DNA of 64,000 nt from NCBI GenBank assembly GCA_035606695.1, contig DATNEW010000034.1:1-64000 (forward strand), given 5' to 3'. The notes under the pieces are model-generated. The model was not told the origin of the DNA and made no database searches. It was given only the letters and a program-made list of their open reading frames with translations. This DNA is from Gemmatimonadaceae bacterium. Its GTDB lineage: Bacteria; Gemmatimonadota; Gemmatimonadetes; Gemmatimonadales; Gemmatimonadaceae. The position numbers and the translations under genes are program-made. Positions 26,395 to 57,342 of this stretch are shown piece after piece (the first letter of the stretch is position 1; each line of letters opens with the position of its first letter).

Positions 26395-27774
26395 TTAACC
26401 GCCCCCGCGCGACAGGCTCTTCCAATCCCGCTGCCGCGCGATCTCGATCCCCGAGATGCACGCCGCCAGCCACACGAAGCCCGCGGCCACGCCAGCGCTG
26501 ACGTCGCTCACGTACCCTTGTCCGAGATACAGACGGGCCGTGACGATCGCCACGATCAGCGCTGTTGCCAGAATTATAATGAGCATACGCATAACAGCGC
26601 CCTTCACGGCAGCGTAGAGGAGATACGCCAGCATGCCGAAGCCGAGCACCACGCCGAGCGCGTGACCGCTCGCGAGGCCCGTTCCCCAGTCGAGCAGCAC
26701 CAGGTCCGCGAACGGCAGCTCCGACCGCCGCACGACGAATCGCAGCGACGCGTCGAGCAGCGAACCGCCGATGAACGCCACGACCCAGCCCGCGAGCTCG
26801 AGCCCGCGCCGGCGGACCGCATACCAGATCGCGCCGGCGAACAACAGCAGCGTCATCGCGCCGCGAGCCCCGAGGCTGCTCAGCACATTGAAGGCATCGA
26901 ACACCGACGGCGCGAGCGATTGCCGCAGATAGTTGGCGACGGTCACGTCGAAGCGAGTGAGCGGCGACCCTTCGACCAACCCCTCGGTGATCGACGCGAA
27001 GATCGCGATGACCGCCAGGCTGATCACGAAGCCGATGCCCAGGTGCACGGCGAGATACTCGCTGTGGGCGTAGCGTCCCGACAGAATCTGAAACGCGCGC
27101 GGGTGGCGACGACGCATTCCACTGACGCGCGGACCGGCGGCGGCGCGCTCGAACGACTCCTCGAGCGACGCGACCACGCTCGTGCGATTCTTCGCGAACC
27201 AGCGCCACAGGAAGACCACCGCGACGACGACGGCGATGAGCAGCGCCAGCACCAGGCTCACGCGCCCGATGTCGTGCACGAGACGCGGCAGATTCCGTCC
27301 AAAGACGTATCCAAGAATGCTGAATGCCGCCACCCACACGCTGCCGCCGATCGCGTTGTAGGTCGCGAATTGGCGCATCGGCATCTGCGTGATTCCGGCG
27401 AAGATGCCGACGAAGCTGCGCACCACGGCGACGAATCGCCCGAGCAGCACCGTCTTCGAGCCATGCTGGTCGAAGAAGCGGCGCGTGCGCTCGAGATGCT
27501 TCGGGCTCAGGCCCACCCACTTCCCATGACGGTGCACGAACCTCGTGCCGCCGCGGGCGCCGATCCAATACCCGGTGTGGCCGCCGAGGATGGTGCCGAT
27601 GGCGCCCGCGATGATCACTCCGGCGAGCGAGAGCGTCCCTCGTCCGGCCAGCGCGGCCGCGGTCACGAGCGCGGTCTCGCCGGGCACCGGCACGCCGGCA
27701 CCCTCGACCAGCAGGAAGAGCGCGACGAGAACGTAGCCGTAATGGGCAACCCACTGGCTTACGACGTCGAGCAT
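26395..27774 (-). CDS. DedA family membrane protein fused to a degenerate PAP2 domain
   Basis: A 459-residue polytopic protein. Residues about 1-205 are DedA/VTT: EGAGVPVPGETALVTAAALAG, GRFVAVVRSFVGIFAG, QFATYNAIGGSVWV. Residues about 245-450 are a PAP2 fold, but the catalytic motifs are altered. C1 reads RRSELPF instead of KxxxxxxRP, C2 is LASGH instead of PSGH, and C3 is ARLYLGQGYVSD, with Gly where the nucleophilic His of SRxYLGVHYPSD should be. DedA proteins flip polyprenyl or phospholipids; PAP2 domains dephosphorylate the same lipids, so the fusion makes sense, but this PAP2 half is probably inactive. Start at 27774 by DedA family; no clear binding site. The intact PAP2 at 39459-40178 provides a contrast. 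Confidence 0.9.
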   Translation of the reverse strand: MLDVVSQWVAHYGYVLVALFLLVEGAGVPVPGETALVTAAALAGRGTLSLAGVIIAGAIGTILGGHTGYWIGARGGTRFVHRHGKWVGLSPKHLERTRRFFDQHGSKTVLLGRFVAVVRSFVGIFAGITQMPMRQFATYNAIGGSVWVAAFSILGYVFGRNLPRLVHDIGRVSLVLALLIAVVVAVVFLWRWFAKNRTSVVASLEESFERAAAGPRVSGMRRRHPRAFQILSGRYAHSEYLAVHLGIGFVISLAVIAIFASITEGLVEGSPLTRFDVTVANYLRQSLAPSVFDAFNVLSSLGARGAMTLLLFAGAIWYAVRRRGLELAGWVVAFIGGSLLDASLRFVVRRSELPFADLVLLDWGTGLASGHALGVVLGFGMLAYLLYAAVKGAVMRMLIIILATALIVAIVTARLYLGQGYVSDVSAGVAAGFVWLAACISGIEIARQRDWKSLSRGGG

Positions 27775-29521: not shown

Positions 29522-29653
29522 GCGAAGTAAGCGCACTATTGTCATCCCGAGCGAAGGCGCACAGCGCCGAAGTCGAGGGACCCCCGTCTCGACGGAGGAG
29601 TTCTCCTCGGCGGAAGGGGGTCCCTCGACTCGCTGACGCTCGCTCGGGATGAC
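29512..29653. repeat. Dispersed palindromic repeat, copy C (supplies a stop codon)
   Basis: GTCATCCTGAGCG (29512) and GTCATCCCGAGCG (29541) on the left, GTCGAGGGACC and CTCCTCGGCGGA inside, CGCTCGGGATGAC (29641-29653) on the right. The TGA of the left motif is the stop of the isochorismatase-like gene. The element fills nearly all of the gap between two convergent genes. Confidence 0.8.
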
Positions 29654-29662
29654 GATTGCTCT

Positions 29663-30691
29663 CTAATGTGTAATCTTGATCAACCACGCCCCGATGATCG
29701 GGCCGCGCGGTCCTCTTCCCCGCCCGTTCGCCGGCGGCGTCGCACCGGCCGGCGGCGGGCCATACTCCGGCGTAAACACGTACGCCGCGTGCGACTTTGT
29801 ATCGACGCCGATCGTGCGCGCGCCGCGCATCGTCTGCACCGTGGCGATCACGGTGTACTTGTCCGGCGAATCTTCGTGCACGACGGTCACGTTGCCGTCG
29901 CCGCTCGGGATGTACATCAGCTTCTGCGACTGGTCCCAGCCAAGCGCATCGACGCTGCCGCCATTCTTGATGCGCGCCACGATGTTTCCGTTCGACGCGT
30001 CGAGCACCAGCGATTCATCGTCGCACGCCGAGAAGATGCGATTCGCCGCGCGATCCATCGCGATGCCCGTGGCGCCCTCGCACGTCGCATAGTGCCCGAT
30101 CACCTTCCACGTCTTTGAATCGATGACGTCGATCTGCTTGTTGTCTTCGTTGTTGATGAAGATGCGATCCTTGCCGTTGCTCACGCCGCCTTCGGGACCC
30201 TTCCCCGACAGCTCGATCGTCGTCACGACGTCGCCCGTCTTCGCGTCGATCACGATGGTGCTGCCGATCGGCTTGCTGTGATTGATCGTCAGGATCTTGT
30301 CCGTCGCATCGTCGTACATGATGCCGTCGAGACCGTCCTTGCCCGCGTGGATCTTCTTGATGACGTCGAACGTCTTCGGGTCGAACATCGTCGACGTCGA
30401 ATCGCCGCCGTTCGTCGTGAAGCCGTGATTGTCCTTCACCGAGAAGGCGGCGCCGTGCACGCGCGGCGTATCCAGGATGTCGTGCAGCACTTTGCCCGTC
30501 GCACCGTCGACGACCATCATGTGCGTGCCGCGCGATACATATACGTTGCCGCTGCTCGGATCGACGGCGACGTAATCGAACGCGCCCTCGCCGCCGATGT
30601 TGAACTTCTCGGTCTTGAACGTTTGCGCCGCGAGCAGGCTGGGAGCGGCAGCCATGCCTGCCAGTGCGGCGCCGAGCAGAATGCGTCTCAT
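29663..30691 (-). CDS. YncE-like seven-bladed beta-propeller, exported
   Basis: A 342-residue exported propeller (signal MRRILLGAALAGMAAAPSLLAAQ) with YVTN/YncE-type repeats: DYVAVDPSSGNVYVSRG, GKDGLDGIMYDDATDKIL, ATGIAMDRAANRIFSACDD, GARTIGVDTKSHAAYVF. The C-terminal PPANGRGRGPRGP is a low-complexity loop before the last strand. YncE proteins are periplasmic and can bind DNA or other ligands; no enzyme activity is implied. It is the last gene of the TolC-adaptor-RND unit: its ATG overlaps the RND stop by four bases, so it is co-translated with the pump. A paralogue lies at 42455-43594. Confidence 0.88.
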   Translation of the reverse strand: MRRILLGAALAGMAAAPSLLAAQTFKTEKFNIGGEGAFDYVAVDPSSGNVYVSRGTHMMVVDGATGKVLHDILDTPRVHGAAFSVKDNHGFTTNGGDSTSTMFDPKTFDVIKKIHAGKDGLDGIMYDDATDKILTINHSKPIGSTIVIDAKTGDVVTTIELSGKGPEGGVSNGKDRIFINNEDNKQIDVIDSKTWKVIGHYATCEGATGIAMDRAANRIFSACDDESLVLDASNGNIVARIKNGGSVDALGWDQSQKLMYIPSGDGNVTVVHEDSPDKYTVIATVQTMRGARTIGVDTKSHAAYVFTPEYGPPPAGATPPANGRGRGPRGPIIGAWLIKITH

Positions 30692-33600
30692 ACGGACCTC
30701 GATGGAGTGGAAAGCTCTGGAGCGGGAGACAAGGGAGTCACGGGAGACAAGCGATGTTCCCGGCCGCGGATCGCGACGAGCAGCGTGGGAACGACGAACA
30801 GCGTGATCGGCGTGGACAGCGCGAGGCCGCCGATGACGGCGAGCGCGAGCGGCTTCTGCATTTCGCTGCCCGAGCCGAGGCCGAGCGCGAGCGGCAAGAG
30901 ACCAAAGAGCGTACAGAGCGTCGTCATGAGGATGGGACGCAGGCGAATACGCGCCGCCTCGCGAATGGCCGGCTCGAGCGCTTCACCGTCGACACGCATG
31001 CGATGCCGCGTGAAGTCGAGCAGAATGATGCCGTTCTTCACGATCAGGCCGACGAGCAGAATCAAGCCCATGAACGACGACACGTTCAGCGGCGTGCCCG
31101 TGATGAGCAGCAGGAACATCGCGCCGACGAACGACAGCGGCGCCGCGAGCAGCACCACCAGCGGTTCGACGAATGACTCGAACTGAATCACCATCACGGC
31201 GACGACGCTCAGGCTCGCGATCGCCAACACCAACAACAGCGCATGAAAGGCCGCCTGCTGGTTGGCGTACTGCCCCGCGATCTCGAGGCGCACGCCCGAC
31301 GGAGGCGGGTTGTCGGCGACGACTTTCTTCACGTCGTTCATGATGGTGCCGAGCGAGCGGCTGCTGATGTCCGCCGTCACGTCGATCATCTGCTGCTGAT
31401 TCTCGCGCAGCAGCTCGGCGCGCGACTCGCCGGTTTGAAATGACGCGAGGGCGTTGAGTGGAACGGCCGTGTGCGTCGTCGAGGAAATGATGGGCAGCGA
31501 TCCGAGCAGCAACGGATTGTATCGCACGGAATCGGGCGCGCGCACGCGAGCGCCGACGGAACGATCCTCCAACCGAACCGCGCCCGCATCGGCGCCGAGC
31601 AGCGCACTCGATACTTGCGCGCTGACTTGATCCGGCGTGAGTCCAATACGATTCGCTTCCGCCTCGTCGATCGTCATGGACATCTCGGCGCTCGGCTCCG
31701 AAACGCCGTTGAAGAGATCTTCGACACCGTCGACCTTCGCCACCTTTTCGCCCAGCTTCGCGCCGTAGGCTTCTAGCTGGTTCAAGTCCGCTCCGAAGAG
31801 CTTGATCTCGACCGGGCGCGCCGCACCGGCGAGATCGTTGATCACGTCGGACAGAATCTGCACGAACTCGACGCGCAGCCGCGGCACCGCCGCCTGAATC
31901 TTGGGCCGAACGTCATCGATCACCTCCTGGCTCGAGCGATCGCGCTGACCGGGATCCTTGAGCCGGACCGCGATGTCACCGCGATTTTGCAACGTCGCGA
32001 ACAATCCCAGCTCCGCGCCGGTTCGGCGCGACGTGCCGGCGATCTCGGGCGTCGCCAGCAGCTTGCTCTCGACGATGTGCACCATACGGTCGGTTTCGTT
32101 GAGCGCCGTTCCGCCCGGACTGTAATAGTCGAGCACGAACGCGCCTTCGTCCATCTCGGGCAGGAAGCCCGAGCCAACGAACCGGTGCACGACCACTCCG
32201 GCGATCACGAGCACGACCGCCGCGCCGATCATCAATCGCGTGTGGTGCAGCGACGACGCAAGCGCGCGCTCGTACTTGTCGGACAGCGCGTCGATCGCGC
32301 CGCCGACGCGCGCCAGGAATCCGCGCGGCCGCCCAGTGGCGTCAGGCTCGGCCTGCTCGACGTCGAGATATTGCTCGCTCAACAGTGGAATGATCGTGAG
32401 CGCGAGCAGCAGCGAGATCATCACGGCGATCGTCAGCGTGATCGACAGCGCGTGAAAGAATTGGCCTTCTACACCAGTGAGCAGGCCGAGCGGCAGAAAG
32501 ACGACGACGGTGGTGATCGTCGACGTCGTCACCGGCCAGATGAGCTCCTGCACGGCTTCGCGCACCGCGGTGTCGCGATCGGGATTGATGCGCAGGTGAC
32601 GCACGATGTTCTCCGTCACGACGACCGCGTCGTCGATGACGAGTCCGATCGCGATCGCCATCGCGCCCAGCGTCATGAGGTTGAACGTCTGCCCGAGCAG
32701 CGACATCACGTAGACGGTGATCGCCATCGTCAGCGGAATCGACGACGCGCTGATCGCCGTCACCCGGCCATGTCGCAGAAAGAGCAGCAGGATGATCACG
32801 GCGAGTATGGCGCCGATCAGCATGGCGTCGCGCACCGACTTCACCGCGTCGCGCACGAGCGCGGCTTGATCGTACACCGGCTTGAGCTTAACGCCGGACG
32901 GCAGCGTCGACGCGAGGTTCTTCGCGATGTTCGCGATGCTGTCGGCGATCTGCACCGTGTTGCCGCCGAGCTGCCGCGTGATGTTGAGCAGCGCGGCGGG
33001 CCGCCCGTCGCCGGCCACGATTCGCACGTGATCCTCGGTCCCCGGCGTCACCGTGGCGAGGTCGCGTACCCGCAACCCGTGCGCGACGACGACGTTCGCG
33101 ATGTCGTCGGCCGACTTCGCTTCGTTCGTCGTGACGATGAGATATTGTCGATAATCCGCCGGCACGCGCCCCACCGCCTGCACCGTCGTCGACGTCTTGA
33201 TCGCGTTCGCCAGATCGTCGTACGTCATACCCTGTGCGGCCAAGCGGCCCGGATCGGCGACGATCTCGATCTCGCGCACGTCGCTCGCCTGCACGTCGAC
33301 GCGCCCCACGCCGGGTACGCGCGAGAACAACGGACGAATCTGATACTGGGCGATGTCGTACAGCGTCGGCGGGTCGCCGCCCTCGAGATTGTATGAGAGA
33401 ATTGGAAAGAGCGACGGCGTGAGGCGCTCGACTTCGATCTCGACACCGGCCGGCAGCGTGCCCGACACCTGGTTCACGCGCGCCTGCACTTGCTGCAGCG
33501 CGTACTGCATGTCGGTGCTGCCGGAGAAGGTCACGTTGATCTCGCTGCCGCCGCGAATCGACCGCGATTGCACGCGCGTCACTCCCGGCACGACCCCCAC

Positions 33601-33828
33601 CGCTTCCTCGATCGGGCGCGTGATCGCGAACAGAATCTGCCGCGCGCCGAGCGCGGAGCCCTGCGTCACGACCGTGATCCGCGAGAATTGCAGCTCGGGA
33701 TAGATCGCCGACGGCAGCTGCAGCGCCGCCCAGATGCCCGCGGCACTGAGCAACGTAACCACGAGATAGACGAATCGCCGCTGCTCCGCGAGCAGCGCGA
33801 ACCACGTTCGGTTGCGCGTCGACGTCAT
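30688..33828 (-). CDS. RND efflux pump, HAE-1 type
   Basis: A 1046-residue inner-membrane pump with the AcrB layout: first helix (FVYLVVTLLSAAGIWAALQL), two large periplasmic loops, and twelve helices with the proton-relay Asp pair in GLVIDDAVVVTENIVRHL. The double Asp (not Asp-Gly) supports drug/organic-compound export rather than the heavy-metal class. The N-terminal pore domain reads SAIYPELQFSRITVVTQG. It overlaps the adaptor upstream and the propeller downstream by ATGA. It would form a tripartite pump with the products of the two preceding genes. The substrate is not evident. Confidence 0.94.
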   Translation of the reverse strand: MTSTRNRTWFALLAEQRRFVYLVVTLLSAAGIWAALQLPSAIYPELQFSRITVVTQGSALGARQILFAITRPIEEAVGVVPGVTRVQSRSIRGGSEINVTFSGSTDMQYALQQVQARVNQVSGTLPAGVEIEVERLTPSLFPILSYNLEGGDPPTLYDIAQYQIRPLFSRVPGVGRVDVQASDVREIEIVADPGRLAAQGMTYDDLANAIKTSTTVQAVGRVPADYRQYLIVTTNEAKSADDIANVVVAHGLRVRDLATVTPGTEDHVRIVAGDGRPAALLNITRQLGGNTVQIADSIANIAKNLASTLPSGVKLKPVYDQAALVRDAVKSVRDAMLIGAILAVIILLLFLRHGRVTAISASSIPLTMAITVYVMSLLGQTFNLMTLGAMAIAIGLVIDDAVVVTENIVRHLRINPDRDTAVREAVQELIWPVTTSTITTVVVFLPLGLLTGVEGQFFHALSITLTIAVMISLLLALTIIPLLSEQYLDVEQAEPDATGRPRGFLARVGGAIDALSDKYERALASSLHHTRLMIGAAVVLVIAGVVVHRFVGSGFLPEMDEGAFVLDYYSPGGTALNETDRMVHIVESKLLATPEIAGTSRRTGAELGLFATLQNRGDIAVRLKDPGQRDRSSQEVIDDVRPKIQAAVPRLRVEFVQILSDVINDLAGAARPVEIKLFGADLNQLEAYGAKLGEKVAKVDGVEDLFNGVSEPSAEMSMTIDEAEANRIGLTPDQVSAQVSSALLGADAGAVRLEDRSVGARVRAPDSVRYNPLLLGSLPIISSTTHTAVPLNALASFQTGESRAELLRENQQQMIDVTADISSRSLGTIMNDVKKVVADNPPPSGVRLEIAGQYANQQAAFHALLLVLAIASLSVVAVMVIQFESFVEPLVVLLAAPLSFVGAMFLLLITGTPLNVSSFMGLILLVGLIVKNGIILLDFTRHRMRVDGEALEPAIREAARIRLRPILMTTLCTLFGLLPLALGLGSGSEMQKPLALAVIGGLALSTPITLFVVPTLLVAIRGREHRLSPVTPLSPAPELSTPSRSV

Positions 33829-34958
33829 GACTTGTCGCTGTCGGGCTTCGCGGCACCCTTCGCGGCGGGTGTCGCGGCTGGCGCCGCACCACGTCCCACG
33901 GCCGGCACCGGCGCAGCCTTGAGCGGCTCGACCTTCGCGCTGTCCGACATGCCGTACGCGCCATACGTCACGATGCGCTCGCCGGCCTTCAATCCCTCCG
34001 TGATCTCGGCAACCTTGTCGGTGCGGCCGCCGACCTTCACGTCACGCTCGTGCGCGACATTGGTCGCATCGACGACGAACACCTTGTACGCCTCGCCCTC
34101 GGGCACCAATGCCTCGAGCGGAACGACGATGGCATTCGGCACCGTTGCCACCGCGACCTGCCCGAACACCGTCTCGCCGATCTTGAGCGGCCGACGGGTC
34201 GTCGGCACCTGCACGCGAATCTGCACGCCGCGCGTCGCGGTGTCGATCGTCGCACCGATGTCCGTCACGCGACCGATGCCGAGCGGCTCGCCCGTCGCGC
34301 TTTGTCCGGCGGAAAGCGTGACGACAGCGCCGCGCTGCACGCGCCCCGCCGCACTCGGCGTGAGCGTCAGCAGGATGTCGAGCGTCTGCGGATCGGAAAT
34401 CTCGACGAGCGGCTGCGACGGATCTGCCGATGCGCCGAGTGTGGCGTTCATCTTCGTGACGACGCCGGCGATCGGCGAGCGCAGCGTGGCGAGCGACGCC
34501 TCACGCTCCGCCGTCGTCAAATCAGATTTCGCGCGCGCCAGATCCGCGGCCGCCGTTTCGGCATCCTTACGCGGGACGATCCCCTCGTTGGCAAGGCGCT
34601 CGGAACGCTCGTAGTTGCGCGAGGCCGCGTCGACCGCGCTCTGCGCACTCTTGAGCGCCGCTTCGAAGGTCGTGGGATCGAGCGTCACCAATGGCTGGCC
34701 GACCGCGACGGCTTGGCCGGTCGAGACATTCACACTCGCGATGCGGCCAGGCGCGCCGGCGCTCAACGTCGCGACGTGTCCGGCGCGACCGACGACGACA
34801 CCGATCGCACCCACTGTCTCGGTGAATGCCTGGGGCGCGACGACGATCGTGTTCGCGTTGACCACCGCCGGCGGAGCATCGTCGTCGCCCGCTTTCTCGC
34901 CGCCCTTGCAGCCGACGGAGATCGTGCAACAGACCAGCATCCAGACCGATCGTCTCAT
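33825..34958 (-). CDS. RND adaptor (membrane fusion) lipoprotein
   Basis: A 377-residue periplasmic adaptor. Start at 34958 (MRRSVWMLVCCTISVGC) gives a lipobox SVGC with the acylated Cys17. Biotinyl/lipoyl half-motif (SAGAPGRIASVNVSTGQAVAVGQPL), helical hairpin (about 100-150), second lipoyl half (LATLRSPIAGVVTKMNATLG), then beta-barrel and membrane-proximal domains (LEALVPEGEAYKVFVV). Ala/Pro/Lys-rich C-terminal tail. It connects the RND pump to the TolC-like channel encoded just upstream. Both ends overlap neighbours by ATGA. Confidence 0.93.
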   Translation of the reverse strand: MRRSVWMLVCCTISVGCKGGEKAGDDDAPPAVVNANTIVVAPQAFTETVGAIGVVVGRAGHVATLSAGAPGRIASVNVSTGQAVAVGQPLVTLDPTTFEAALKSAQSAVDAASRNYERSERLANEGIVPRKDAETAAADLARAKSDLTTAEREASLATLRSPIAGVVTKMNATLGASADPSQPLVEISDPQTLDILLTLTPSAAGRVQRGAVVTLSAGQSATGEPLGIGRVTDIGATIDTATRGVQIRVQVPTTRRPLKIGETVFGQVAVATVPNAIVVPLEALVPEGEAYKVFVVDATNVAHERDVKVGGRTDKVAEITEGLKAGERIVTYGAYGMSDSAKVEPLKAAPVPAVGRGAAPAATPAAKGAAKPDSDKS

Positions 34959-36160
34959 GGCAACGGAGTCGTCGAAGTGAGTGAGAAGATTCGCAGCTCG
35001 GCCGTGGCGATCCACGCCGCCGCGAGATCGTCGATGTATTGCGAGATGACGTCGCGCGCGCTGCGCTGTGCCTGGAGCACGTTCGGCAGCGACTGCGCGC
35101 CCTCGCGATATGCCGTGATGGACATCTGCGCCACCCGCTCGGCACTCGTCACGAGCTGGCGGTCGCGCTCGACGCGCGCCAGCGCGTTCGATCGCTCGCG
35201 GATCGCGTGCGCGATCTGATTTCGAGCCTCGACCTGCGCGAGCGTCAACTCCGCCTGCGCGCGAATGCGTTCGGCTTGTGCCTGCGCGATTGGACCGCGG
35301 TTGCGATCAAATAGTGGCAATCCGATACCAATTCCGAACGTCGGAAGAATGCCAGGCTCCGCCTCCGGATCGCCGCCCGTCTCGATGCCGCCGGTAATGC
35401 TGAACTGCGACCACACCGAACGCCGTTGGAGCCGCTCGCTCAATTGCGCGGACTCGAGCGAAAGGCTCGCGGCGGACTCGTTGAGCGTCACCTGCCCCGT
35501 CGTCGCCGGCACGGGTGGTGTGGCGAGTGAATCCGTCGCGTTCACTTTCAGCGCGTCGCTCGCGATACCCAGCACCGCTTGCAGGTCGAGCAGCGCGGAG
35601 ATCCACGTCAGCGAGTCCGCCGCGGCGGCGTTCGCCTGCTGTCCGGCGTTGACGCGCGCCAGCTCCACATCCATGTCGGCCGCATCGCCCGCGTCGCGGC
35701 GCCGCTCGACCATGTGCAGCAGGCTATCCGCGTCGAGCGCGTTGCGGCGCGATAGTACGAGCTTCTCGCGCGCGGCAATGGCGTGCGTGTACGTCGTGTC
35801 GGCGTCCAGCGCGATCGACGCGCGCGCGAACTGATACCGCAGTTGTGCCGCTTGCACACCGACCTGCGCGGCGCGAATGCGCAGCTGCCGCAGCATCGGA
35901 AAATCGATCGGCACGTCCACCGTGAAGTGATACCGCGGGCGCGCCTTGCTGTACGCCGCGCTCAGCGTGGGATTCGGCAGCGCGCGCGCGCCGATCAGTG
36001 CCGCTGTCGCGACCGCGGTGTCGGCGCGTGCCACGCCCAACCGGGCACCGCGATCGAGTGCGGTCTCGACGGCGCTCGCGCGCGAGTATGGAGTGGCTTG
36101 TGCATGAATGGACGCGGCGGGAATGACACAGGCCGCGGCCAGGGCAATGCGAAGTCGCAT
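34955..36160 (-). CDS. TolC-like outer-membrane efflux protein
   Basis: A 401-residue outer-membrane factor with signal peptide (MRLRIALAAACVIPAASIHAQ) and two OEP repeats of long helices (ALPNPTLSAAYSKARP; ERVAQMSITAYREGAQSLP, VLQAQRSARD). First gene of the four-gene efflux unit and 46 bp downstream of the histidine kinase, so probably under the same two-component control. Together with the adaptor and pump it spans the whole envelope. Confidence 0.92.
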   Translation of the reverse strand: MRLRIALAAACVIPAASIHAQATPYSRASAVETALDRGARLGVARADTAVATAALIGARALPNPTLSAAYSKARPRYHFTVDVPIDFPMLRQLRIRAAQVGVQAAQLRYQFARASIALDADTTYTHAIAAREKLVLSRRNALDADSLLHMVERRRDAGDAADMDVELARVNAGQQANAAAADSLTWISALLDLQAVLGIASDALKVNATDSLATPPVPATTGQVTLNESAASLSLESAQLSERLQRRSVWSQFSITGGIETGGDPEAEPGILPTFGIGIGLPLFDRNRGPIAQAQAERIRAQAELTLAQVEARNQIAHAIRERSNALARVERDRQLVTSAERVAQMSITAYREGAQSLPNVLQAQRSARDVISQYIDDLAAAWIATAELRIFSLTSTTPLP

Positions 36161-36206: not shown

Positions 36207-37514
36207 TCAGGAGAATGACAGCGAGGCGGAATCGGCCGGGGGAAAGTGAACGGCGACCCTGGTGCCTTGTCCAGCCTCCGACGCCACGTCGATGCGCGCG
36301 TCATGCGCGTCGGCAATCCATCGCGCGATCGAGAGGCCGAGGCCGGCGCCTTGCGCGGCATCACCACTGCCGCGCGTGCGCGCGGGATCGCCGCGAAAGA
36401 ATCGCTCGAAGATTCGCGGAAGCTGGTCGGGCGGAATACCACAGCCCGTGTCCGCCACACGCAGCGTCGGCTGGCCGTTCACCGACTCGACGTCGACGCG
36501 CACCTCGCCGCCCGCACCGGTGAACTTGACCGCGTTGTCGAGGAGAATGAGCACGAGCTGTCGAAGCAGCGCGGGATCGCCGGCGACAGGCGCTTCGTCG
36601 AATGCGCCGACGTCGAGCCGCACGCCCTTGCGATCGGCGATCGCGCGTGCGGCGGTCGCGGCATCCAGCGTGATGTCGTCGAGGAAAACGCGCGCGCGTT
36701 CGATCGGTCGCTCGCCCGAATCCGCGCGGGCGAGCGTGAGCAAATCCTCAACGATTCTCCCGAGCCGCTCCGCCTCGTGCTCGATGCCGAGAAGAGCCTC
36801 CGTATAGTCCTCGGGATTCCGCGACCGCTGCAGCGCGATCTCGGCACGGCTGCGCACGACGGTGATCGGCGTGCGCAGCTCGTGCGCGGCGTCAGCCATG
36901 AACTGGCGCATGTGGTCGATTGCGCGCTCGACGGGTCGCGTGGACTGGCGCGCGACGAACCACCCGCCTGCCGACCCCAGAACGACAGCGAACAACGCGG
37001 CTGCACCGAATGCCGCGATCAGCGTCGTGTATCGATCCTCGAGCTCGACCTCGTCGGCGACGGCGACCGCGACGTACGTGTCCCGGCCCGCGCGAAACGC
37101 GCGCGCCTGCGCACGGAGAATGCGATCGGCACCGACGCCGTGCGATGCCGACGCCGTCCCGGCTCGCGCCGCTCGACTCGCGACTTCGCCGACCCACGGC
37201 TCGGTCAGTGCGCTGTCGGACGCGAGGAGCGCACCGCCGGCGGAATACACGAGCAAATGACGATCGGGCACGCGGAGTGCGCGCGGTGCCTCGGTCACGC
37301 CTCGCTCCTGCGCGACGCCGGCGAGATGTGCCGATGCATCGCGCAACGACGCATCCAGATCGGCGTCGAAGCGCTGCGTGATCGCCGCGAACACGCCGAT
37401 GCCCAGCAGCGTGAGGATGACGAGGATCGTGCCGGCGTACCACGCCGTGAGTCGCAGACGCAAGCCACGCAGCGACGTGGTCAAAATGGGACGCCGCTCC
37501 AGCGTCTCGCTCAC
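36207..37514 (-). CDS. Sensor histidine kinase of the envelope/efflux cluster
   Basis: A 435-residue membrane kinase. GTG start (37514) overlaps the response-regulator stop (GTGA), deciding the start over the longer open frame. First helix at about 24-46, periplasmic loop to about 163, second helix about 164-186, short HAMP-like linker, phosphoacceptor FMADAAHELRTP (His211), then N-box LILLDNAVKF, DTGCGI, FERFF and GAGLGLSIARW. QseC/BasS-class layout with a periplasmic sensor of about 115 residues of no recognised type. Partner is the OmpR-type regulator encoded just before it. Confidence 0.93.
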   Translation of the reverse strand: MSETLERRPILTTSLRGLRLRLTAWYAGTILVILTLLGIGVFAAITQRFDADLDASLRDASAHLAGVAQERGVTEAPRALRVPDRHLLVYSAGGALLASDSALTEPWVGEVASRAARAGTASASHGVGADRILRAQARAFRAGRDTYVAVAVADEVELEDRYTTLIAAFGAAALFAVVLGSAGGWFVARQSTRPVERAIDHMRQFMADAAHELRTPITVVRSRAEIALQRSRNPEDYTEALLGIEHEAERLGRIVEDLLTLARADSGERPIERARVFLDDITLDAATAARAIADRKGVRLDVGAFDEAPVAGDPALLRQLVLILLDNAVKFTGAGGEVRVDVESVNGQPTLRVADTGCGIPPDQLPRIFERFFRGDPARTRGSGDAAQGAGLGLSIARWIADAHDARIDVASEAGQGTRVAVHFPPADSASLSFS

Positions 37515-38179
37515 GGACCGAGGCGGTAGCCGGCGCCGCGCAGAGTGTGAATCAGCTTGACGTCGAACTCGTCGTCGATCTTGCGGCGCAGCCTCCGCAC
37601 CAGCACCTCGAGCACGTTCGTGAACGGGTCGTGATTCTCGTCCCACACGTGCGCCGTGATCGCCGCGCGATCGACCACCTGCCCCGCATGCCGCGCGAAG
37701 AATTCGAGGAGCGCGAACTCTTTCGCCGTGAGCTCGATGCGCGCCCCGCCCCGCCGCACCTGGTGCGAGCGCATGTCCACCTCGAGATCCGCGACGCGAA
37801 CGACTTCCGGAAGCGTCGACGGCGGCCGGCGCGCGAGTGCCCGAATGCGCGCCACGAGCTCGCGAAACGCGAACGGCTTCGGCAGGTAATCGTCGGCGCC
37901 GGAATCCAAACCGCGCACGCGATCCTCGACGGCGTCGCGCGCCGTCAGCATCAGCACCGGCGTCGCGACCCCCCGCGCCCGCAGGGTGCGACAGAGCTCG
38001 AATCCGTCGCCGCCGGGGAGCATGACGTCGAGCACGATGACGTCGAACGCGCCGAGGATGGCGCGCGATTTCCCGCCGTCGAACGTGGATTCCCGAACGA
38101 CCTGAAACCCGTCTTCCGTCAGTCCTTCGCGAAGAATCGAGGCCAGCTCGGCGTCGTCCTCGACGAGGAGAATGCGCAT
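37511..38179 (-). CDS. OmpR/PhoB family response regulator
   Basis: A 222-residue regulator: receiver with acidic pair Glu7/Asp8/Asp9 (VEDDAE), phospho-Asp51 (VIVLDVMLPGG), Thr79 (MLTARD) and Lys101 (LPKPF); C-terminal winged helix (LTAKEFALLEFFARH, NVLEVLVRRLRRKID, HTLRGAGYRL). It starts 3 bp after the stop of the permease gene and overlaps the kinase start. Likely controls its own cluster and possibly the efflux genes downstream. Confidence 0.95.
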   Translation of the reverse strand: MRILLVEDDAELASILREGLTEDGFQVVRESTFDGGKSRAILGAFDVIVLDVMLPGGDGFELCRTLRARGVATPVLMLTARDAVEDRVRGLDSGADDYLPKPFAFRELVARIRALARRPPSTLPEVVRVADLEVDMRSHQVRRGGARIELTAKEFALLEFFARHAGQVVDRAAITAHVWDENHDPFTNVLEVLVRRLRRKIDDEFDVKLIHTLRGAGYRLGP

Positions 38180-38182
38180 GCG

Positions 38183-39397
38183 TTATTCGTAGCGCAGTGC
38201 GGCGATGGGATCAAGCGACGACGCGCGCCGGGCAGGCCAGACTCCGAACAACACGCCCACACCCGCCGCGAAGAGAAACGCCAATACGATCGACGTCGGA
38301 CCAATCGCGGTGCTCCACCCGAACGAGTTGCGAAGCACGACCGCGCCGCCGACACCCAGCACGATGCCGATCGTGCCGCCGAGCAGACACAACGTCACGG
38401 CTTCGACCAGAAACTGAAACAGAATCGTTCGCTTCGTGGCGCCGAGTGCCTTCCGAATGCCGATCTCGCGCGTACGCTCGGTCACCGACACGAGCATGAT
38501 GTTCATGATGCCGATGCCGCCGACCAGCAGCGACACCGCGGCGATGCCCGCCAACAGGCTCGTGAACACCTGCGTCGTCTCACCCAGCGTCGCCAGCAGG
38601 TCCGCCTGATTGCGAATGCGAAAATCATCGGCATCGTCCGGCCGCAGATGATGTGAGCGCCTCAGCGCCTGACCGATCTCGCCCATCGCTTCCGGCAACG
38701 CGGCTTCGTTCTCCGCGAGCGCGAAGAGGTCGTCCAATCGCTCCGTCTTGAACAGGCGATATCGCCCCGTGCCGAACGGAATGAACACTTGGTCGTCGGC
38801 GCTGCCGAATCCCGCGCCCGCTCCCTTGGACTGCAGCACGCCGATGACCTGAAACTGCATGCCGCCAATGCGCACGTTCTCGCCGATCAACGCGCCCGGG
38901 TCGCGAACGCCGAGCAGGCTCGGCACGTTCGAGCCGAGCACCGCGACGCGCTGCCGTCCGATGTCTTCACCCGAGGTGAACATGCGGCCGCGGTCGATCA
39001 CGAAGTGTTGCACCTGCGCGAAATTCGCCGTCGCGCCGACGATCTTGGTACTCGCATTGTGATCGGTCCACTGGATCTGCAGATCCTTGTCCTGCTGCGG
39101 CTCGACGGCAAGCACATGCTCCGCGTGCTCGTTGATCGAGGCCACGTCGTCCATCGTCACGCGCTTGCGGACGTTCGTCTGGATGCCGTTCGTGCGCACC
39201 CACTGCGCGTCGATTTGGAGGGTGGTGGTACCGAGCCGAGCGATGCGATCGCGCACCGACGCCTGCGCGCCGTCGCCCAGGGCGATCATGGCGATGACCG
39301 CGGCCACTCCAATCACGATACCCAGCATGGTGAGCAACGAACGGAGCACGTTCGCGCGCAGCGCAGCGAACGCGATCTGTATGACTTCGAGCGGCAC
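38183..39397 (-). CDS. MacB-type ABC permease lacking an ATPase domain
   Basis: A 404-residue FtsX-fold permease: N-terminal helix (LLTMLGIVIGVAAVIAMIAL), MacB periplasmic core domain (about 50-240) and three C-terminal helices (VSLLVGGIGIMNIMLVSVTERTREIGIRKALGATKRT... in the FtsX module), ending with the conserved DPIAALRYE. GTG start at 39397 has GAGGA about 6 bp upstream. MacB normally carries its own ATPase, or has a LolD-like partner beside it; neither is present in this cluster. It may borrow an ATPase from elsewhere, or act as a passive partner of the two-component system, as BceAB permeases do (inference). Confidence 0.92.
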   Translation of the reverse strand: MPLEVIQIAFAALRANVLRSLLTMLGIVIGVAAVIAMIALGDGAQASVRDRIARLGTTTLQIDAQWVRTNGIQTNVRKRVTMDDVASINEHAEHVLAVEPQQDKDLQIQWTDHNASTKIVGATANFAQVQHFVIDRGRMFTSGEDIGRQRVAVLGSNVPSLLGVRDPGALIGENVRIGGMQFQVIGVLQSKGAGAGFGSADDQVFIPFGTGRYRLFKTERLDDLFALAENEAALPEAMGEIGQALRRSHHLRPDDADDFRIRNQADLLATLGETTQVFTSLLAGIAAVSLLVGGIGIMNIMLVSVTERTREIGIRKALGATKRTILFQFLVEAVTLCLLGGTIGIVLGVGGAVVLRNSFGWSTAIGPTSIVLAFLFAAGVGVLFGVWPARRASSLDPIAALRYE

Positions 39398-39458: not shown

Positions 39459-40178
39459 TCACGAGGATGACAGCGTAAACCCTCTGTGATGGAGGACGAT
39501 TCCCGCCACGCTGATGCAGATCGCCAGCCAGGCGGCCCCAGCGGCCCATCCGCCCAGCACGTCGCTCGGGTAGTGAACGCCGAGATAAATCCGGCTGGCG
39601 CCGACGAGCATCACGAAGATCGCGGCGGCGCCGATCGCGACCGCGTGTCCACCGCGCCCAAGCTGTCGTGAAACGAAGAGCAGATAGACGAGCATGCCGC
39701 AGCCGATGATCGACGCCATCGCGTGACCTGACGGAAAGCTGAACGAATTGCCGGTGAGATACTGCGTGCCATAGGGCGGACGCGTGCGATGCACGACCGC
39801 CTTGAGCAGCCGTTCGAGCAAGCCGCCGCCCGCGAACGCCGCGACCCACGTGACGAACAGCGTGGGCCATCGCCGCGCGAGCAGATAGATACCGCCGACG
39901 ATCGCGAGAATGGTCATCGCGACGGGAGATCCAACGCGCGACATGAAATTGAAGAACGCCAACCCGGCCGGCGTGGTCTGCGCATGGATCATTCGGTCCG
40001 CGAACTTGTCGAAGCGAACGAGAAATGCGTTGTCGAGCACCGCATCGAGCAATGATGCGAACAGCCACAGCGCGCCCGCGACCACGACGAGCCCCAGCGT
40101 CAAATGCAGGCCGAGAAACGTGGACGTGTCGAGGCGTCGTTCGAGAAATTTCCTGAAGTGGACCGGCGAAACGTTCAA
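39459..40178 (-). CDS. PAP2 family lipid phosphatase (intact catalytic motifs)
   Basis: A 239-residue six-helix membrane phosphatase. All three motifs are intact: C1 LKAVVHRTRPPYG, C2 FPSGHAMAS, C3 GASRIYLGVHYPSD. It would dephosphorylate undecaprenyl-, phosphatidylglycerol- or lipid A-type phosphates at the periplasmic face (PgpB/LpxT-like). The start is TTG at 40178, overlapping the PepSY stop (TTGA); no alternative ATG precedes the first helix, so coupling to the PepSY gene is likely. 61 bp separate it from the permease. Confidence 0.92.
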   Translation of the reverse strand: MNVSPVHFRKFLERRLDTSTFLGLHLTLGLVVVAGALWLFASLLDAVLDNAFLVRFDKFADRMIHAQTTPAGLAFFNFMSRVGSPVAMTILAIVGGIYLLARRWPTLFVTWVAAFAGGGLLERLLKAVVHRTRPPYGTQYLTGNSFSFPSGHAMASIIGCGMLVYLLFVSRQLGRGGHAVAIGAAAIFVMLVGASRIYLGVHYPSDVLGGWAAGAAWLAICISVAGIVLHHRGFTLSSS

Positions 40179-40558
40179 GGTTTCTTCTTTCCCTTCTTCG
40201 CCTCGGCCCTCTCCGCCTTCGCCTCGGCTTGTTCGGCCGCGGCGCTCTCGTGCTGCACCTTGCCGATCATTTTGCCTGTTTTGGCGTCGACGTTGACTTC
40301 GTCGGTGCCCGACTTGCCGGCGGCCTTCACGTCCATCGAATAGATGAGCCGGCCGCCTTCGCGTTCGAGCTCGATGCTCGACACTTTCCCGTTCGGCACG
40401 GCCTTCTTCGCGACCGCGATCGCGGCGGCTTCAGTGACCCTGGCTTGCCGCGCGAGGGAATCCGGAAGATCCCGCTTGTAGCTCGGCTGCTGCGCCAACG
40501 CGGGGGTCGCGGTGAATCCGATCGCGGCCACGCCCCCGAACAGCGTCAGACGTCGCAT
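40175..40558 (-). CDS. PepSY domain periplasmic protein
   Basis: A 127-residue exported protein. Strong ribosome binding site GGGAGGAG 5-6 bp upstream fixes the ATG at 40558 (MRRLTLFGGVAAIGF, cleavage near ALAQ). The mature region is a PepSY domain (AAAIAVAKKAVPNGKVSSIE, YSMDVKAAGKSGTDEVNVDA) with a Lys/Ala/Glu-rich C-terminal tail. PepSY proteins modulate peptidases or sensor kinases in the periplasm and often accompany two-component systems. First gene of the nine-gene minus-strand cluster. The frame stays open upstream through a 9-bp tandem repeat that supplies extra ATG/GTG codons. Confidence 0.88.
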   Translation of the reverse strand: MRRLTLFGGVAAIGFTATPALAQQPSYKRDLPDSLARQARVTEAAAIAVAKKAVPNGKVSSIELEREGGRLIYSMDVKAAGKSGTDEVNVDAKTGKMIGKVQHESAAAEQAEAKAERAEAKKGKKKP

Positions 40559-40573
40559 GAGACTCCTCCCGAG

Positions 40574-40627
40574 ATGAAGTACGTGAAGTACGTGAAGCAC
40601 GTGAAGCATGTGAACCATGTGAAGCAA
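40574..40627 (-). repeat. Six 9-bp tandem repeats in the pepSY leader
   Basis: Units of the form GTGAAGTAC/GTGAAGCAC (plus strand) repeat six times. On the mRNA strand they read ATGCTTCAC or GTGCTTCAC and are in frame with the PepSY gene, giving a Leu-His-Met/Val peptide if translated. The array ends 7 bp before the Shine-Dalgarno, so copy-number change would alter the leader by whole codons. Confidence 0.8.
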
Positions 40628-40745: not shown

Positions 40746-42440
40746 ATGATCGCCGCCCTGCTCCTGACCGCCCTGATCGCGAAGGCCGACACGAATGCCG
40801 ACTCGAGCGCTACGTGCAAGGGCGAGCGCGTGTCGGCCGTTTCGATCAACGCTCGGCGCCCCAGCTTTGGCGGCAGCGCGAGCAAATGGCGGACGATCGC
40901 GCACGCGTTGGGTCTCCATCACGTGACGACCCGGTCGGGCGTCATTCGCGCGTTTTCGTTCGTCCACCCGGGCGACGAGTGCACCACCCAGCGCATGCAG
41001 GAGACCGAGCGCGTGCTTCGCGCGCTGCCGTTTCTCGCCGACGCATCCGTTCGGGCGGTGCCCTCCGACAGCGGCATGGTCGCTGTCGAGATCGAGACGA
41101 CGGACGAAGTGCCCGTGCTCGCCGCCGGTGGGTTGCGACACGCCGTTCCCACTTCCTTCTCGGTCGGCAACGAAAATCTGTTCGGGTTGGGTACGATGGT
41201 CGACTTCGGCATCGGCAGCAACTCGCCCTACCGCACGTCGGGCTTCGTCAGAGGTTCCGTGTACGGCGTATTCGGCAGCCCAACGCTCGCCACCGCCAAC
41301 GCAACGCGCGAGCGACTCGGCGATCATGTCGATCTCGCGCTCTCGCGACTCCTGCTGTCCGATCTCCAGCGCGTTGCCTGGAATGCGACGTATCGCGCCG
41401 GCGACGACTTCCCGATCGTCGTGAGGCCGGTGGGCGACGACCAATCGGTTGAGGTCCACGATCACCGCTGGTCGGTCGGCACGATCCATCGCGTCAACTT
41501 CGGCGCCACGCCATTCCTCATCGGTCCCGTAGTGCTCGGCAACTCGATATCGCCTGCCTCGACGTCGATCGTCGTGTCCGACTCCGGTGCGGTGGTGCAG
41601 CGCGACAGCGCGTTGCTCGCGCGCTTTCAGCCGTTTCACGCGATGCGTCTGGGCGCGCTCGTCGGCGCACGGCGCGTTCGGTTCGTCACGCGGAACGGAT
41701 TCGACGCGCTCTTCGCGCCACAGGATTTGATGGTCGGATGGCAGGCCGGCACGCTCGCCGCACCGTCGCTGACGCACGACGGCGGACACGACTTTCTTCT
41801 GGCGCCGAGTATCTACGTCGGAGCCGCGTCACGCAGGACAGCGATTCTTGCCGACCTCGAGGGAGAAGCCCGCCGCGAATTCGACAGCGGCACCACGGCG
41901 ACCATCGCCAACGTGCACGCGACCGCTTACGTGAAGCCGAGCGAGCGGCTGCTGCTGTCGGCGGAAGACAATTTTTCCGTCATCGACCGCGCCGCGTTGC
42001 CGACGCAGCTCACGATGAGCGATGCACTCGGTGGTCCGCGCGGTTTCGCCGGCTCGCCGCTCCTTGGCGCGCGGCGCGACGTGCTTCGTCTCGAGGCGCG
42101 CTTCGCCGTTCCCGCTCTCGTACACCGCGCCGATCTCGGTGTCGCGTTATTCGCTGATGCAGGTTGGATCGACGCCGGCAACGTACCCTTCGGCACGACG
42201 GGCACCGCGCACAGCGTTGGCTTCAGTCTCATCGGCGCATACCCGACGCGGTCGAAGCACACGTATCGTCTCGACGTCGCCTTTCCGACCGGCGGTACGG
42301 GAGGTACCGGCATTCACCGCGTGCAGGTGCGGTTCATCAACGGCGATCCCACGTCGAACTTCGCCGTGGAACCGGGCGACGTGACACAGGCGCGCATGGC
42401 GCCCGTGCCCTCGTCGCTGTTCACATGGCCCGGTCGTTAG
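40746..42440 (+). CDS. Omp85-family outer-membrane protein with reduced POTRA region
   Basis: A 564-residue protein with a short signal (MIAALLLTALIAKA). Residues about 55-115 resemble a single POTRA-like element (ERVLRALPFLADASVRAVP, VAVEIETTDEVPVLAAGG). A barrel of about 430 residues follows with the Omp85 hallmark near the end (LGGPRGFAGSPLLGARR, then LRLEARFAVP), and it closes with beta strands (RVQVRFINGD). BamA has five POTRA domains and TamA three; here only one fits. It could insert or secrete a dedicated substrate, or be a two-partner-secretion-like pore. No partner gene is visible. Convergent with a YncE-like gene. Confidence 0.7.
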   Translation: MIAALLLTALIAKADTNADSSATCKGERVSAVSINARRPSFGGSASKWRTIAHALGLHHVTTRSGVIRAFSFVHPGDECTTQRMQETERVLRALPFLADASVRAVPSDSGMVAVEIETTDEVPVLAAGGLRHAVPTSFSVGNENLFGLGTMVDFGIGSNSPYRTSGFVRGSVYGVFGSPTLATANATRERLGDHVDLALSRLLLSDLQRVAWNATYRAGDDFPIVVRPVGDDQSVEVHDHRWSVGTIHRVNFGATPFLIGPVVLGNSISPASTSIVVSDSGAVVQRDSALLARFQPFHAMRLGALVGARRVRFVTRNGFDALFAPQDLMVGWQAGTLAAPSLTHDGGHDFLLAPSIYVGAASRRTAILADLEGEARREFDSGTTATIANVHATAYVKPSERLLLSAEDNFSVIDRAALPTQLTMSDALGGPRGFAGSPLLGARRDVLRLEARFAVPALVHRADLGVALFADAGWIDAGNVPFGTTGTAHSVGFSLIGAYPTRSKHTYRLDVAFPTGGTGGTGIHRVQVRFINGDPTSNFAVEPGDVTQARMAPVPSSLFTWPGR

Positions 42441-42454
42441 GCGAAACGCTCGCG

Positions 42455-43594
42455 CTATTTCCCGATCATCAAAATCGTGAACGATCCCGGAATCGCCGGG
42501 GCGAAACCGCCGCGTCCACCGCCCGGCGGCGGCGGCGGTGCCGGTCCCCGCTCCTGGCTCATCGCGAAAACGTGGCCCGTCTTCGGATCGAACGTGATCG
42601 TGCGCGCGCCGTTCATCGTCTGAAGATTCTGCTCGACCTCGAACGTCGCGGGGCTGGTCTCCTTCACCACCGTCAACGTCCCGTTGCCGTGCGTGCTGAA
42701 CGCTTCCATCGTCGCGGGATTGAACGTCGCCCCGTCGGACCCGCCGGCCAGCGGCAGTGTCGTCAGAATCTTTCCATCCTTTGCGCTGAGGATCACCATC
42801 TTCGGCTGCGCCGGCTGCACCGGCGGATTGCCGGATTGGGCGCACGCGGCGAACAGCACGTGATTCTTCGTGTCGATCGCAAGGCCGTTGCATCCGCCGA
42901 CATCGCCGAAGGAGTAGTGTGTCGTCGTCTTCATCGCTCGCGTGTCCACGACGGCGACGCCACCCTCCGGCCGATCCTGCATCACGACGTACAACGTGCC
43001 GTTGCCGTCGGACACCGCTTGCTCGGGTGTGCCGCCGAGCGGAATGCGTCCCAGCACCGTGCCGGTCTTCGAGTCGATCACGGTGGCGTCTTTCGTCGGA
43101 TGACTGAAAACGTAGACGCGATCGTTGAAGTTGTCGAAGTAGATGCCATCCGGACCGACGCCCGAATCGATCGGGATGCTCTTGATGATCTGCAGCGACT
43201 TCGTGTCGAACATCGTGATCTGCGGCCGGCTGCTCGAAAACCCGTGTCCGGATTTTGGATCGACCGCAACGCCGTTGCCCTGCGAGTTTGGCGCGGTGAG
43301 AATCTGACCGACCGATGTGAGATCATCGAGGTTGTACACCTCGATGCGCGGCGCGACAGCCTCGCGCGCGGGTGTGCTGTCGGTGGCCGCCGCCGCGCGA
43401 ATGCCACCGCGCGGGATGTACAGGCGGCGTCCGACGGGATCGGCCTGGATGTAATCCCAACCGCCTTCGCCGCCGACACGGGCGCGCGTCAACACCTTGT
43501 ACGGTGATTCACTGAACGACACGGGCTGCTGCGCTGAAAGCGTCGCGGCAACGCCGAGTGCGCCGAATGCGCAGAGCAGCGGAATGCGAGTCAT
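42455..43594 (-). CDS. YncE-like beta-propeller, second copy
   Basis: A 379-residue exported propeller (signal MTRIPLLCAFGALGVAATLSAQ), paralogue of 29663-30691: shared GGEGGWDYIQADPVGRRLY versus GGEGAFDYVAVDPSSGNVY, QTMNGARTITFDPKTGHVF versus QTMRGARTIGVDTKSHAAY. Low-complexity PPPPPGGGRGG loop before the last strand, as in the paralogue. GAGGG about 9 bp upstream supports the start. Unlike its paralogue it stands alone, convergent with the Omp85 gene. Confidence 0.87.
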   Translation of the reverse strand: MTRIPLLCAFGALGVAATLSAQQPVSFSESPYKVLTRARVGGEGGWDYIQADPVGRRLYIPRGGIRAAAATDSTPAREAVAPRIEVYNLDDLTSVGQILTAPNSQGNGVAVDPKSGHGFSSSRPQITMFDTKSLQIIKSIPIDSGVGPDGIYFDNFNDRVYVFSHPTKDATVIDSKTGTVLGRIPLGGTPEQAVSDGNGTLYVVMQDRPEGGVAVVDTRAMKTTTHYSFGDVGGCNGLAIDTKNHVLFAACAQSGNPPVQPAQPKMVILSAKDGKILTTLPLAGGSDGATFNPATMEAFSTHGNGTLTVVKETSPATFEVEQNLQTMNGARTITFDPKTGHVFAMSQERGPAPPPPPGGGRGGFAPAIPGSFTILMIGK

Positions 43595-46375: not shown

Positions 46376-46716
46376 GCGCGCTCCGGCCGCAGCGCGAAGA
46401 ACGACTCGATGAGCTGTGCCGTCTCGCGCCATTCTCGCGTCTCACGCGCGAGTTGCTTCTGGCCGGCGGCCGTCAGATGGTAGAATTTGGCGCGCCGGTT
46501 GTTCTCCGACGCGCCCCACTCGCCATGAATGAAGCCTTCCTGCTCCAGTTTGAGGAGCGCCGGGTAGAGCGTTCCGTAGTTGAGCGCCAGGCGGTCGCCG
46601 CTCGTTTCCTCGATGCGCCGCGCGATGCCGTAGCCATGCAGCGGCCCGAGGACCTCGAGGGTACGCAGCACCATGAGCGACAGTGTGCCCTGCTGGACGT
46701 CGATGCGGTCCGCCAC
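46372..46716 (-). CDS. PadR-like regulator 1 (minus-strand pair)
   Basis: A 114-residue PadR winged-helix protein: GTLSLMVLRTLEVLGPLHGYGIARRI, LNYGTLYPALLKLEQEGFI, KFYHLTAAGQKQL. The GTG start at 46716 is chosen because it has GGGAG about 5 bp upstream and because PadR-s2 proteins begin about eight residues before QGTL; the longer frame to ATG 46752 or 46833 would read through two palindromes. Co-translated with ADOP permease 1. Probably an autorepressor acting on the shared divergent region. Confidence 0.9.
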   Translation of the reverse strand: MADRIDVQQGTLSLMVLRTLEVLGPLHGYGIARRIEETSGDRLALNYGTLYPALLKLEQEGFIHGEWGASENNRRAKFYHLTAAGQKQLARETREWRETAQLIESFFALRPERA

Positions 46717-46727
46717 GGCGACTCCCG

Positions 46728-46742
46728 TATGGGTTACCCATA
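46728..46742. promoter_or_regulatory. 15-bp palindrome upstream of PadR 1, candidate operator
   Basis: TATGGGTTACCCATA is a perfect palindrome around a single central T, 12 bp upstream of the chosen GTG start and just outside the Shine-Dalgarno. Position and symmetry suit a dimeric PadR repressor. Evidence is positional only. Confidence 0.5.
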
Positions 46743-46756
46743 TGACTACCATGTTT

Positions 46757-46775
46757 CCTATTGGAAAGCAATAGG
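46757..46775. promoter_or_regulatory. Inverted repeat CCTATTG-5-CAATAGG, candidate operator
   Basis: CCTATTG (46757-46763) and CAATAGG (46769-46775) are exact complements around GAAAG. It lies between the two divergent PadR genes, in locally AT-rich DNA typical of a promoter. It could bind either PadR. Confidence 0.5.
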
Positions 46776-46829
46776 GACCGGGGGCATGGCTCTTGACGCC
46801 CAGGCTATCCCATGCCAGGTTGTGATACA

Positions 46830-46840
46830 TCAATTATTGA
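46830..46840. promoter_or_regulatory. 11-bp palindrome upstream of PadR 2
   Basis: TCAATTATTGA is a perfect palindrome around a central T, 25 bp before the PadR 2 start. It shares the CAAT/ATTG core with the inverted repeat at 46757-46775, suggesting related sites. Confidence 0.45.
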
Positions 46841-46865
46841 GGCATCATCATCAAATGGCTCAATC

Positions 46866-47195
46866 ATGGAAGTAATGCCGGGCACGCTCGACACCCTCAT
46901 CCTTCGCGGTCTCATCTGGGGGCCACGGCACGGCTACGCCGTCGCCCGGTGGATCGAGCAGAGCTCTGGCGAGGCGCTCGTCGTGCTCGACGGCGCGCTC
47001 TACACCGCCCTGCACCGCATGGAAGAGCGCGAGCTCATTGCCGCGGAGTGGGGAGTGTCGCCCACCGGCCGGCGCGCCAAGTTCTATCGGCTCACGCCGC
47101 GAGGCCGCGCTCACCTCAAGCAGGAAACGCGCGGGTGGGACGACTACGTCGACGCGGTCGCGCGCGTGATGCGCACACGCACACAGCCCACGTGA
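46866..47195 (+). CDS. PadR-like regulator 2 (plus-strand pair)
   Basis: A 109-residue PadR protein: MPGTLDTLILRGLIWGPRHGYAVARWI, VVLDGALYTALHRMEERELI, KFYRLTPRGRAHL. The start MEVMPGTLD at 46866 follows the family; no clear Shine-Dalgarno. 16 bp separate it from ADOP permease 2. Divergent from PadR 1 with 149 bp between starts; the two regulators are only distantly alike, so cross-regulation is possible but not shown. Confidence 0.9.
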   Translation: MEVMPGTLDTLILRGLIWGPRHGYAVARWIEQSSGEALVVLDGALYTALHRMEERELIAAEWGVSPTGRRAKFYRLTPRGRAHLKQETRGWDDYVDAVARVMRTRTQPT

Positions 47196-47211
47196 TTTCC
47201 GGAGTCCGGCC

Positions 47212-57159: not shown

Positions 57160-57179
57160 CGACTACTCAAAAAAGAAAG

Positions 57180-57330: not shown

Positions 57331-57342
57331 CCAAAGCCACAC

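Follow-up and report, generated by a model that had tools for sequence, protein, structure and literature searches.

Propeller genes of a YncE-like family were repeatedly found beside one lineage of RND efflux pump and the stress-sensing genes that go with it, in Gemmatimonadota and at least five other phyla, and the layout of propeller and pump was not conserved. The propeller looks like a ligand-binding helper, because its position keeps shifting and the family also occurs without the pump. We give an even chance to the reading that it is a periplasmic ligand-binding accessory of an efflux module under two-component control, rather than a fixed structural subunit of the pump.

The efflux operon and its products

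The window, that is, the whole stretch of 64,000 nucleotides that was analyzed, comes from a host genome of 5.9 Mb in 50 contigs, whose nameable close relatives are Gemmatimonadota. Its minus strand carries a four-gene set for a TolC-like protein, an adaptor, an RND pump and a seven-bladed propeller with an export signal (Table 1). The permease, adaptor and outer membrane factor of a tripartite RND efflux system are thus encoded together, with scores of 772 bits for ACR_tran (cut-off 28), 180.8 for TIGR01730 (cut-off 94.9) and 103.3 for OEP (cut-off 22). The operon extends 5' of the TolC gene on the same strand and with tight spacing, and includes genes for the histidine kinase, the response regulator, the MacB-like permease, the PAP2 phosphatase and the PepSY protein. 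A long inverted repeat (CGAGGGACCCCC ... GGGGGTCCCTCG), which may be a terminator or a repeat element, lies directly 3' of the propeller stop codon (29530-29660). The plus strand between the genes for the PepSY protein and the second propeller (40746-42440) encodes a protein of 564 aa that had no Pfam match and a relative only in locus L072.

Table 1. Features of the efflux operon and its surroundings in the window
Feature	Position	Strand	Details
Propeller, exported, YncE-like, 342 aa	29663..30691	-	Seven blades after a signal peptide
ATGA shared by RND stop and propeller start	30688..30691	-	Junction sequence
RND permease, 1046 aa	30688..33828	-	ACR_tran 9e-232; HAE-type Asp-Asp and Lys; closest solved relatives ZneA and MdtB
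ATGA shared by adaptor stop and RND start	33825..33828	-	Junction sequence
RND periplasmic adaptor, probable lipoprotein	33825..34958	-	HlyD_D23 3.2e-19; TIGR01730 above cut-off; lipobox SVGC
ATGA shared by TolC stop and adaptor start	34955..34958	-	Junction sequence
TolC-like outer membrane factor	34955..36160	-	OEP 1.8e-29
Sensor histidine kinase	36207..37514	-	GTG start; 4-base overlap with regulator stop
Response regulator, OmpR/PhoB-type	37511..38179	-	
MacB-like permease	38183..39397	-	MacB_PCD and FtsX matched, ATPase domain not; counterpart in L077
PAP2-family phosphatase	39459..40178	-	Keeps recurring in related modules
PepSY-domain protein	40175..40618	-	Sole PepSY match in host genome
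Second propeller, same family	42455..43594	-	32% identical to the first; counterpart L075:825-1964

The sequence-only reading had joined the four genes by ATGA overlaps. The coordinates and the three junction sequences (CCATGAGA, TCATGACG and GTATGAGA) confirmed this, with ATGA present in all three; the TolC-adaptor overlap is valid only with the ATG at 34958 as the adaptor start, which gives a signal sequence bearing the lipobox MRRSVWMLVCCTISVGC. The further claim that the overlaps fix the stoichiometry of the products does not hold. Gene overlap favours co-translation and does not fix subunit ratios, and gaps of -4 were found in 100 of 492 same-strand neighbour pairs (20%) in related loci; ATGA alone is therefore weak evidence, and we rejected it as a sign of a fixed complex. 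The -4 gap between adaptor and RND genes was kept in most relatives. Only the window and one other case, locus L208 on a Sphingomonas plasmid, whose pump is split across frames in its record, showed an ATGA between pump and propeller.

The pump carries the motifs GLVIDDAVVV (Asp-Asp) and GLIVKNGIILLDF (Lys, VKNGI), which aligned with MdtB. It has the HAE-type proton relay, with Asp-Asp in TM4 and Lys in TM10, for which we take D407/D408/K940 of AcrB to be the reference residues. The TIGR00914 score of 540.8 lies below the cut-off of 701.45 for the HME-RND type (CusA/CzcA), and ZneA has DFGIIVDGAIVV at the position of GLVIDDAVVV. Assignment as a metal (HME) pump through the match to ZneA (9e-99) was rejected, since that to MdtB was nearly equal (1.6e-96) and the HME cut-off was missed. 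A tree of 74 pumps placed the window pump in a lineage separate from the other RND pumps of the host, with a support of 98. A tandem pair of such further RND permeases, not of the lineage of the operon pump, is encoded at 54016-60453 on the minus strand. Orthologous pumps, mostly with 65-80% identity, were present in about 30 of 59 relatives, and their constant neighbours were the regulator, kinase, TolC and adaptor genes; the propeller was not one of these. The conserved unit is regulator-kinase-TolC-adaptor-pump.

The Pfam search gave no match above cut-off for the propeller. It matched two other models weakly, the YncE equivalog NF052280 (40.9 bits, curated cut-off 400) and the PQQ-catabolism propeller TIGR03866 (59.7 bits, cut-off 287.3). 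Both names were rejected because both cut-offs were missed; the protein is YncE-like, not YncE. The AF2 model (pLDDT 92.3, pTM 0.88) had E. coli YncE (3vgz, 3vh0, 7seu), likewise an exported seven-bladed propeller, as its closest solved fold, with a Z score of 36.6 over 289 residues and an rmsd of 1.9 but only 20% identity. Fold-search matches to WDR5 and spliceosomal WD40 proteins were taken to mean the common propeller fold only.

At the equivalent position of each blade, the start of the first strand, the window propeller has a polar residue: D39, H79, D122, E167, T208, D248 and R292. D39, D122, E167 and D248 were kept in all 49 family members, position 292 was R or K in 49/49, H79 was kept in 45/49 and position 208 was T or S in 46/49. 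A broader alignment with distant plasmid members kept D39, D122 and D248 in 16/16 rows. Judged by their strand positions in the model, these seven residues would face the central opening. C223 is invariant and C204 nearly invariant in the family, and the two may form a disulfide.

The second propeller gene in the window had been described as unlinked, which is partly right. One divergent gene and a distance of 1.8 kb separate it from the PepSY gene, which lies downstream, and a relative with 61% identity is part of the pump locus in another genome of the genus (L075). The host genome also has a third paralog (G000:C6:8223-9239), 57% identical, without linkage to a pump.

Linkage of propeller and pump across genomes

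The phylum sample consisted of 395 genomes, in which 102 pump loci were found in 101 genomes, and propellers were taken at E <1e-28. At least 30 of the 102 pump loci had a propeller within 10 kb, an undercount because of contig ends, the E-value limit and counting from the matches listed. Gene calling at 31 loci found a propeller in 14. The control was another RND pump of these genomes, and a propeller lay within 10 kb in 0/54 of its loci (Fisher 7e-7). The linkage to this pump lineage is thus genuine and specific.

In the linked loci, the propeller gene was downstream on the opposite strand in 10, upstream on the same strand in 10, downstream on the same strand in 7 and upstream on the opposite strand in 3, with one overlapping convergent case (G051) entered as upstream. 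On the pump tree, the linked state must have changed at least 13 times. Among the matches listed, about 70% of the sampled pump loci were without a detected propeller inside 10 kb, so its role would often be filled from elsewhere in the genome.

Propellers were found in 93 of the 101 genomes with the pump, the other eight having none detected, as compared with 22 of the 294 without it (odds ratio 144). The control pump co-occurred with the propeller in 49 of 52 genomes (odds ratio 69), and co-occurrence at the genome level is therefore not specific. Among genomes free of the control pump, the propeller was present in 54/61 with the pump and 12/282 without it. Co-occurrence was not accepted as proof of a partnership, for which, with odds ratios of 69 and 144, it gives weak support only.

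The pairing was seen in at least six phyla. The same module parts recur in Gemmatimonadota, Acidobacteriota (L181, L189, L191, L200), Ignavibacteriota (L184), Armatimonadota (L176), Alphaproteobacteria (L198, L203, L208) and Bacteroidota (L213). On plasmid pTB1 of Sphingobium yanoikuyae the order is PepSY-TolC-adaptor-RND-YncE-PAP2, with divergent kinase and regulator genes, and pACIX902 of Granulicella tundricola has a collinear regulator-kinase-YncE-TolC-adaptor-RND. In Sphingomonas paeninsulae, PepSY-TolC-adaptor-RND-PAP2 is adjoined by regulator-kinase-YncE, and in Hymenobacter GOD-10R, regulator-kinase-TolC-adaptor-RND is adjoined by PAP2-YncE-PAP2. The loci of Acidobacteriota, Ignavibacteriota and Armatimonadota resemble these reshuffled layouts. 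Public records give "YncE family protein" next to such pumps, without a function.

The close same-strand neighbours of 72 distinct propellers were RND (9; 8 upstream and 1 downstream), histidine kinase (7), PepSY (6), PAP2 (5) and TolC (4) genes. The RND share is inflated if anything, because the propeller collection was partly gathered through the pump. The eight cases of a pump directly followed by a same-strand propeller were the window, L072, L074, L131, L181, L189, L198 and L208. Propellers also occurred where no RND pump is adjacent, in TonB, MFS and chromate loci. Some plasmid propellers have no pump annotated; one lies with a TonB receptor and ExbBD/TonB, one with PepSY and a TonB receptor, and one with PAP2, the last two adjoining a two-component pair.

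DedA and EamA genes were also among the module neighbours. A VTT (DedA-type) and PAP2 fusion protein is encoded in the window itself (26395-27774, minus strand). In three other genomes of the genus, relatives of the fusion were found at the pump loci (L069, L075, L077), where they adjoin an FMN-dependent dehydrogenase. Upstream of the second propeller gene, a PadR-type regulator lies between two large MacB/FtsX permeases of 872 and 924 aa (43757-49986).

Possible roles of the propeller

The sequence-only reading had made the propeller a fourth component of the pump. A functional tie is supported by the linkage, its absence from the control pump and its spread over phyla; a fixed component is not. 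An accessory conserved across orthologous operons, as looked for in a four-component RND pump of the CusF or MexG type, was not found, and the four-gene order largely failed the conservation check, with the propeller missing from most orthologous operons and many layouts among the linked loci. It therefore seems unlikely that the propeller joins TolC, adaptor and RND in one assembly, whether for structure or for substrate binding, in spite of the same-strand adjacency at eight loci and the ATGA in two of them; the many changes of linked state on the pump tree and the TonB, MFS and chromate loci that lack an adjacent RND pump also speak against it. The neighbour pattern is better explained by an accessory to the module as a whole than by a subunit of the pump. 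At the other extreme, propeller and pump might share gene-rich stress islands and be functionally unrelated, and the unspecific co-occurrence at the genome level would agree with this. We regard such hitch-hiking as very improbable, since the control pump showed no linkage and the linkage, together with the same companion genes, is found in six phyla.

The propeller might instead belong to the two-component system and act in the periplasm as a co-sensor; it would bind the signal and make contact with the histidine kinase, and the pump would be output only. Regulator-kinase-propeller operons with a -4 overlap of kinase and propeller genes (L143, L179) or with short gaps (L155, L171, L200, L203, L209) argue for this, as do two loci without an annotated pump (L202, L210), in which two-component genes and PepSY or PAP2 still adjoin the propeller. 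However, many propellers have no kinase nearby (among others L098, L099, L103-L107), and the pump directly precedes the propeller in L181, L189 and L198; we hold the co-sensor role to be possible but rather doubtful. An enzyme of the metal-dependent hydrolase or lactonase type, which would act beside PAP2 in modifying a toxic compound or a lipid of the envelope, is suggested by the frequent PAP2 neighbours and by the conserved polar residues that recur from blade to blade at one position, an arrangement shared with DFPase-like propellers, themselves weak profile matches. The DFPase matches reached only E 0.001-0.01 over 80 residues, a catalytic motif of a known family was not identified, and the nearest fold is that of YncE, which to our knowledge is not known as an enzyme. 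There is accordingly a small chance that the propeller is an enzyme.

On the reading that we prefer, an accessory that binds a ligand in the periplasm, the two-component system would sense a periplasmic signal together with PepSY and would drive the tripartite RND pump, the PAP2 phosphatase and the propeller, presumably under stress. The inducing or exported compound would be captured in the central opening of the propeller, near the seven near-invariant residues, and might be a metal cation or a cationic compound. The propeller could buffer this ligand, pass it to the adaptor or the pump, or present it to the kinase. The chromate clusters and the DUF305 neighbours of some unlinked propellers point weakly to metals as the substrate class; the PAP2, DedA and EamA neighbours point, equally weakly, to lipid or cationic-peptide stress as the setting. 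More tentatively, the loci might represent a modular system for envelope defence, so far undescribed and spread over at least six phyla. It would be made of a two-component system, PepSY, PAP2 and the propeller, which, with its conserved polar ring, would be an exchangeable ligand-binding subunit for the kinase as well as the transporter; the place of the transporter would be taken by one RND lineage and elsewhere by TonB-dependent or MFS systems.

Relation to known systems

The statement that standard tripartite pumps have no fourth component overlooks CusF-CusBAC and MexGHI-OpmD, four-component RND pumps that are on record (PMC4338810) and that give the proposal of a fourth partner a precedent. 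In the literature searched, no propeller was found to fill that place. A search for a link of YncE with RND pumps, or of PepSY with propellers, gave nothing relevant in a collection with few subscription journals. YncE-family propellers are common periplasmic proteins without a settled function, and the reproducible tie to one RND lineage with a two-component system, PepSY and PAP2 gives them a concrete genomic setting. If the propeller binds the substrate of the pump or the signal of the kinase, it would represent an RND accessory of a new kind and point to the natural substrate of the pump.

The module resembles CusCFBA with CusRS of E. coli in having a co-encoded periplasmic accessory, an RND pump and two-component control (PMC4338810, PMC4335983). 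However, CusF is a small metallochaperone and not a propeller, and CusA is of the HME type, whereas the window RND scores below the HME cut-off and has the HAE-type Asp-Asp and Lys. MexGHI-OpmD of P. aeruginosa likewise has an RND pump and a fourth, function-modifying operon member (PMC4338810), but MexG was proposed to be an inner membrane protein, whereas the propeller is predicted to be periplasmic and lies outside the pump operon in most genomes. In CopM-CopRS-CopBAC of Synechocystis a periplasmic binding protein, a two-component system and an RND pump also act together; CopM, a copper binder, is a DUF305 protein and not a propeller (PMC4335983), although some unlinked propellers do adjoin DUF305 genes. 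In four genomes (L099, L105, L106, L073) pump-unlinked propellers adjoin a DUF305 gene and an LVIVD-repeat gene.

The ChrZ-like YncE proteins of the chromate clusters on C. metallidurans pMOL28, where the locus is named chrY-chrZ (PMC2864759), are about 25-27% identical to the window propeller, keep D39, D122 and D248 and also belong to a resistance cluster. They differ in that an RND pump is absent from the module position and E167 is missing. Distant relatives of the propeller were found in the ChrZ position at the end of chromate-resistance clusters on Cupriavidus and Burkholderia plasmids (L199:8908-9876, L211:6878-7918), and gene order suggests that these chromate-cluster relatives are ChrZ.
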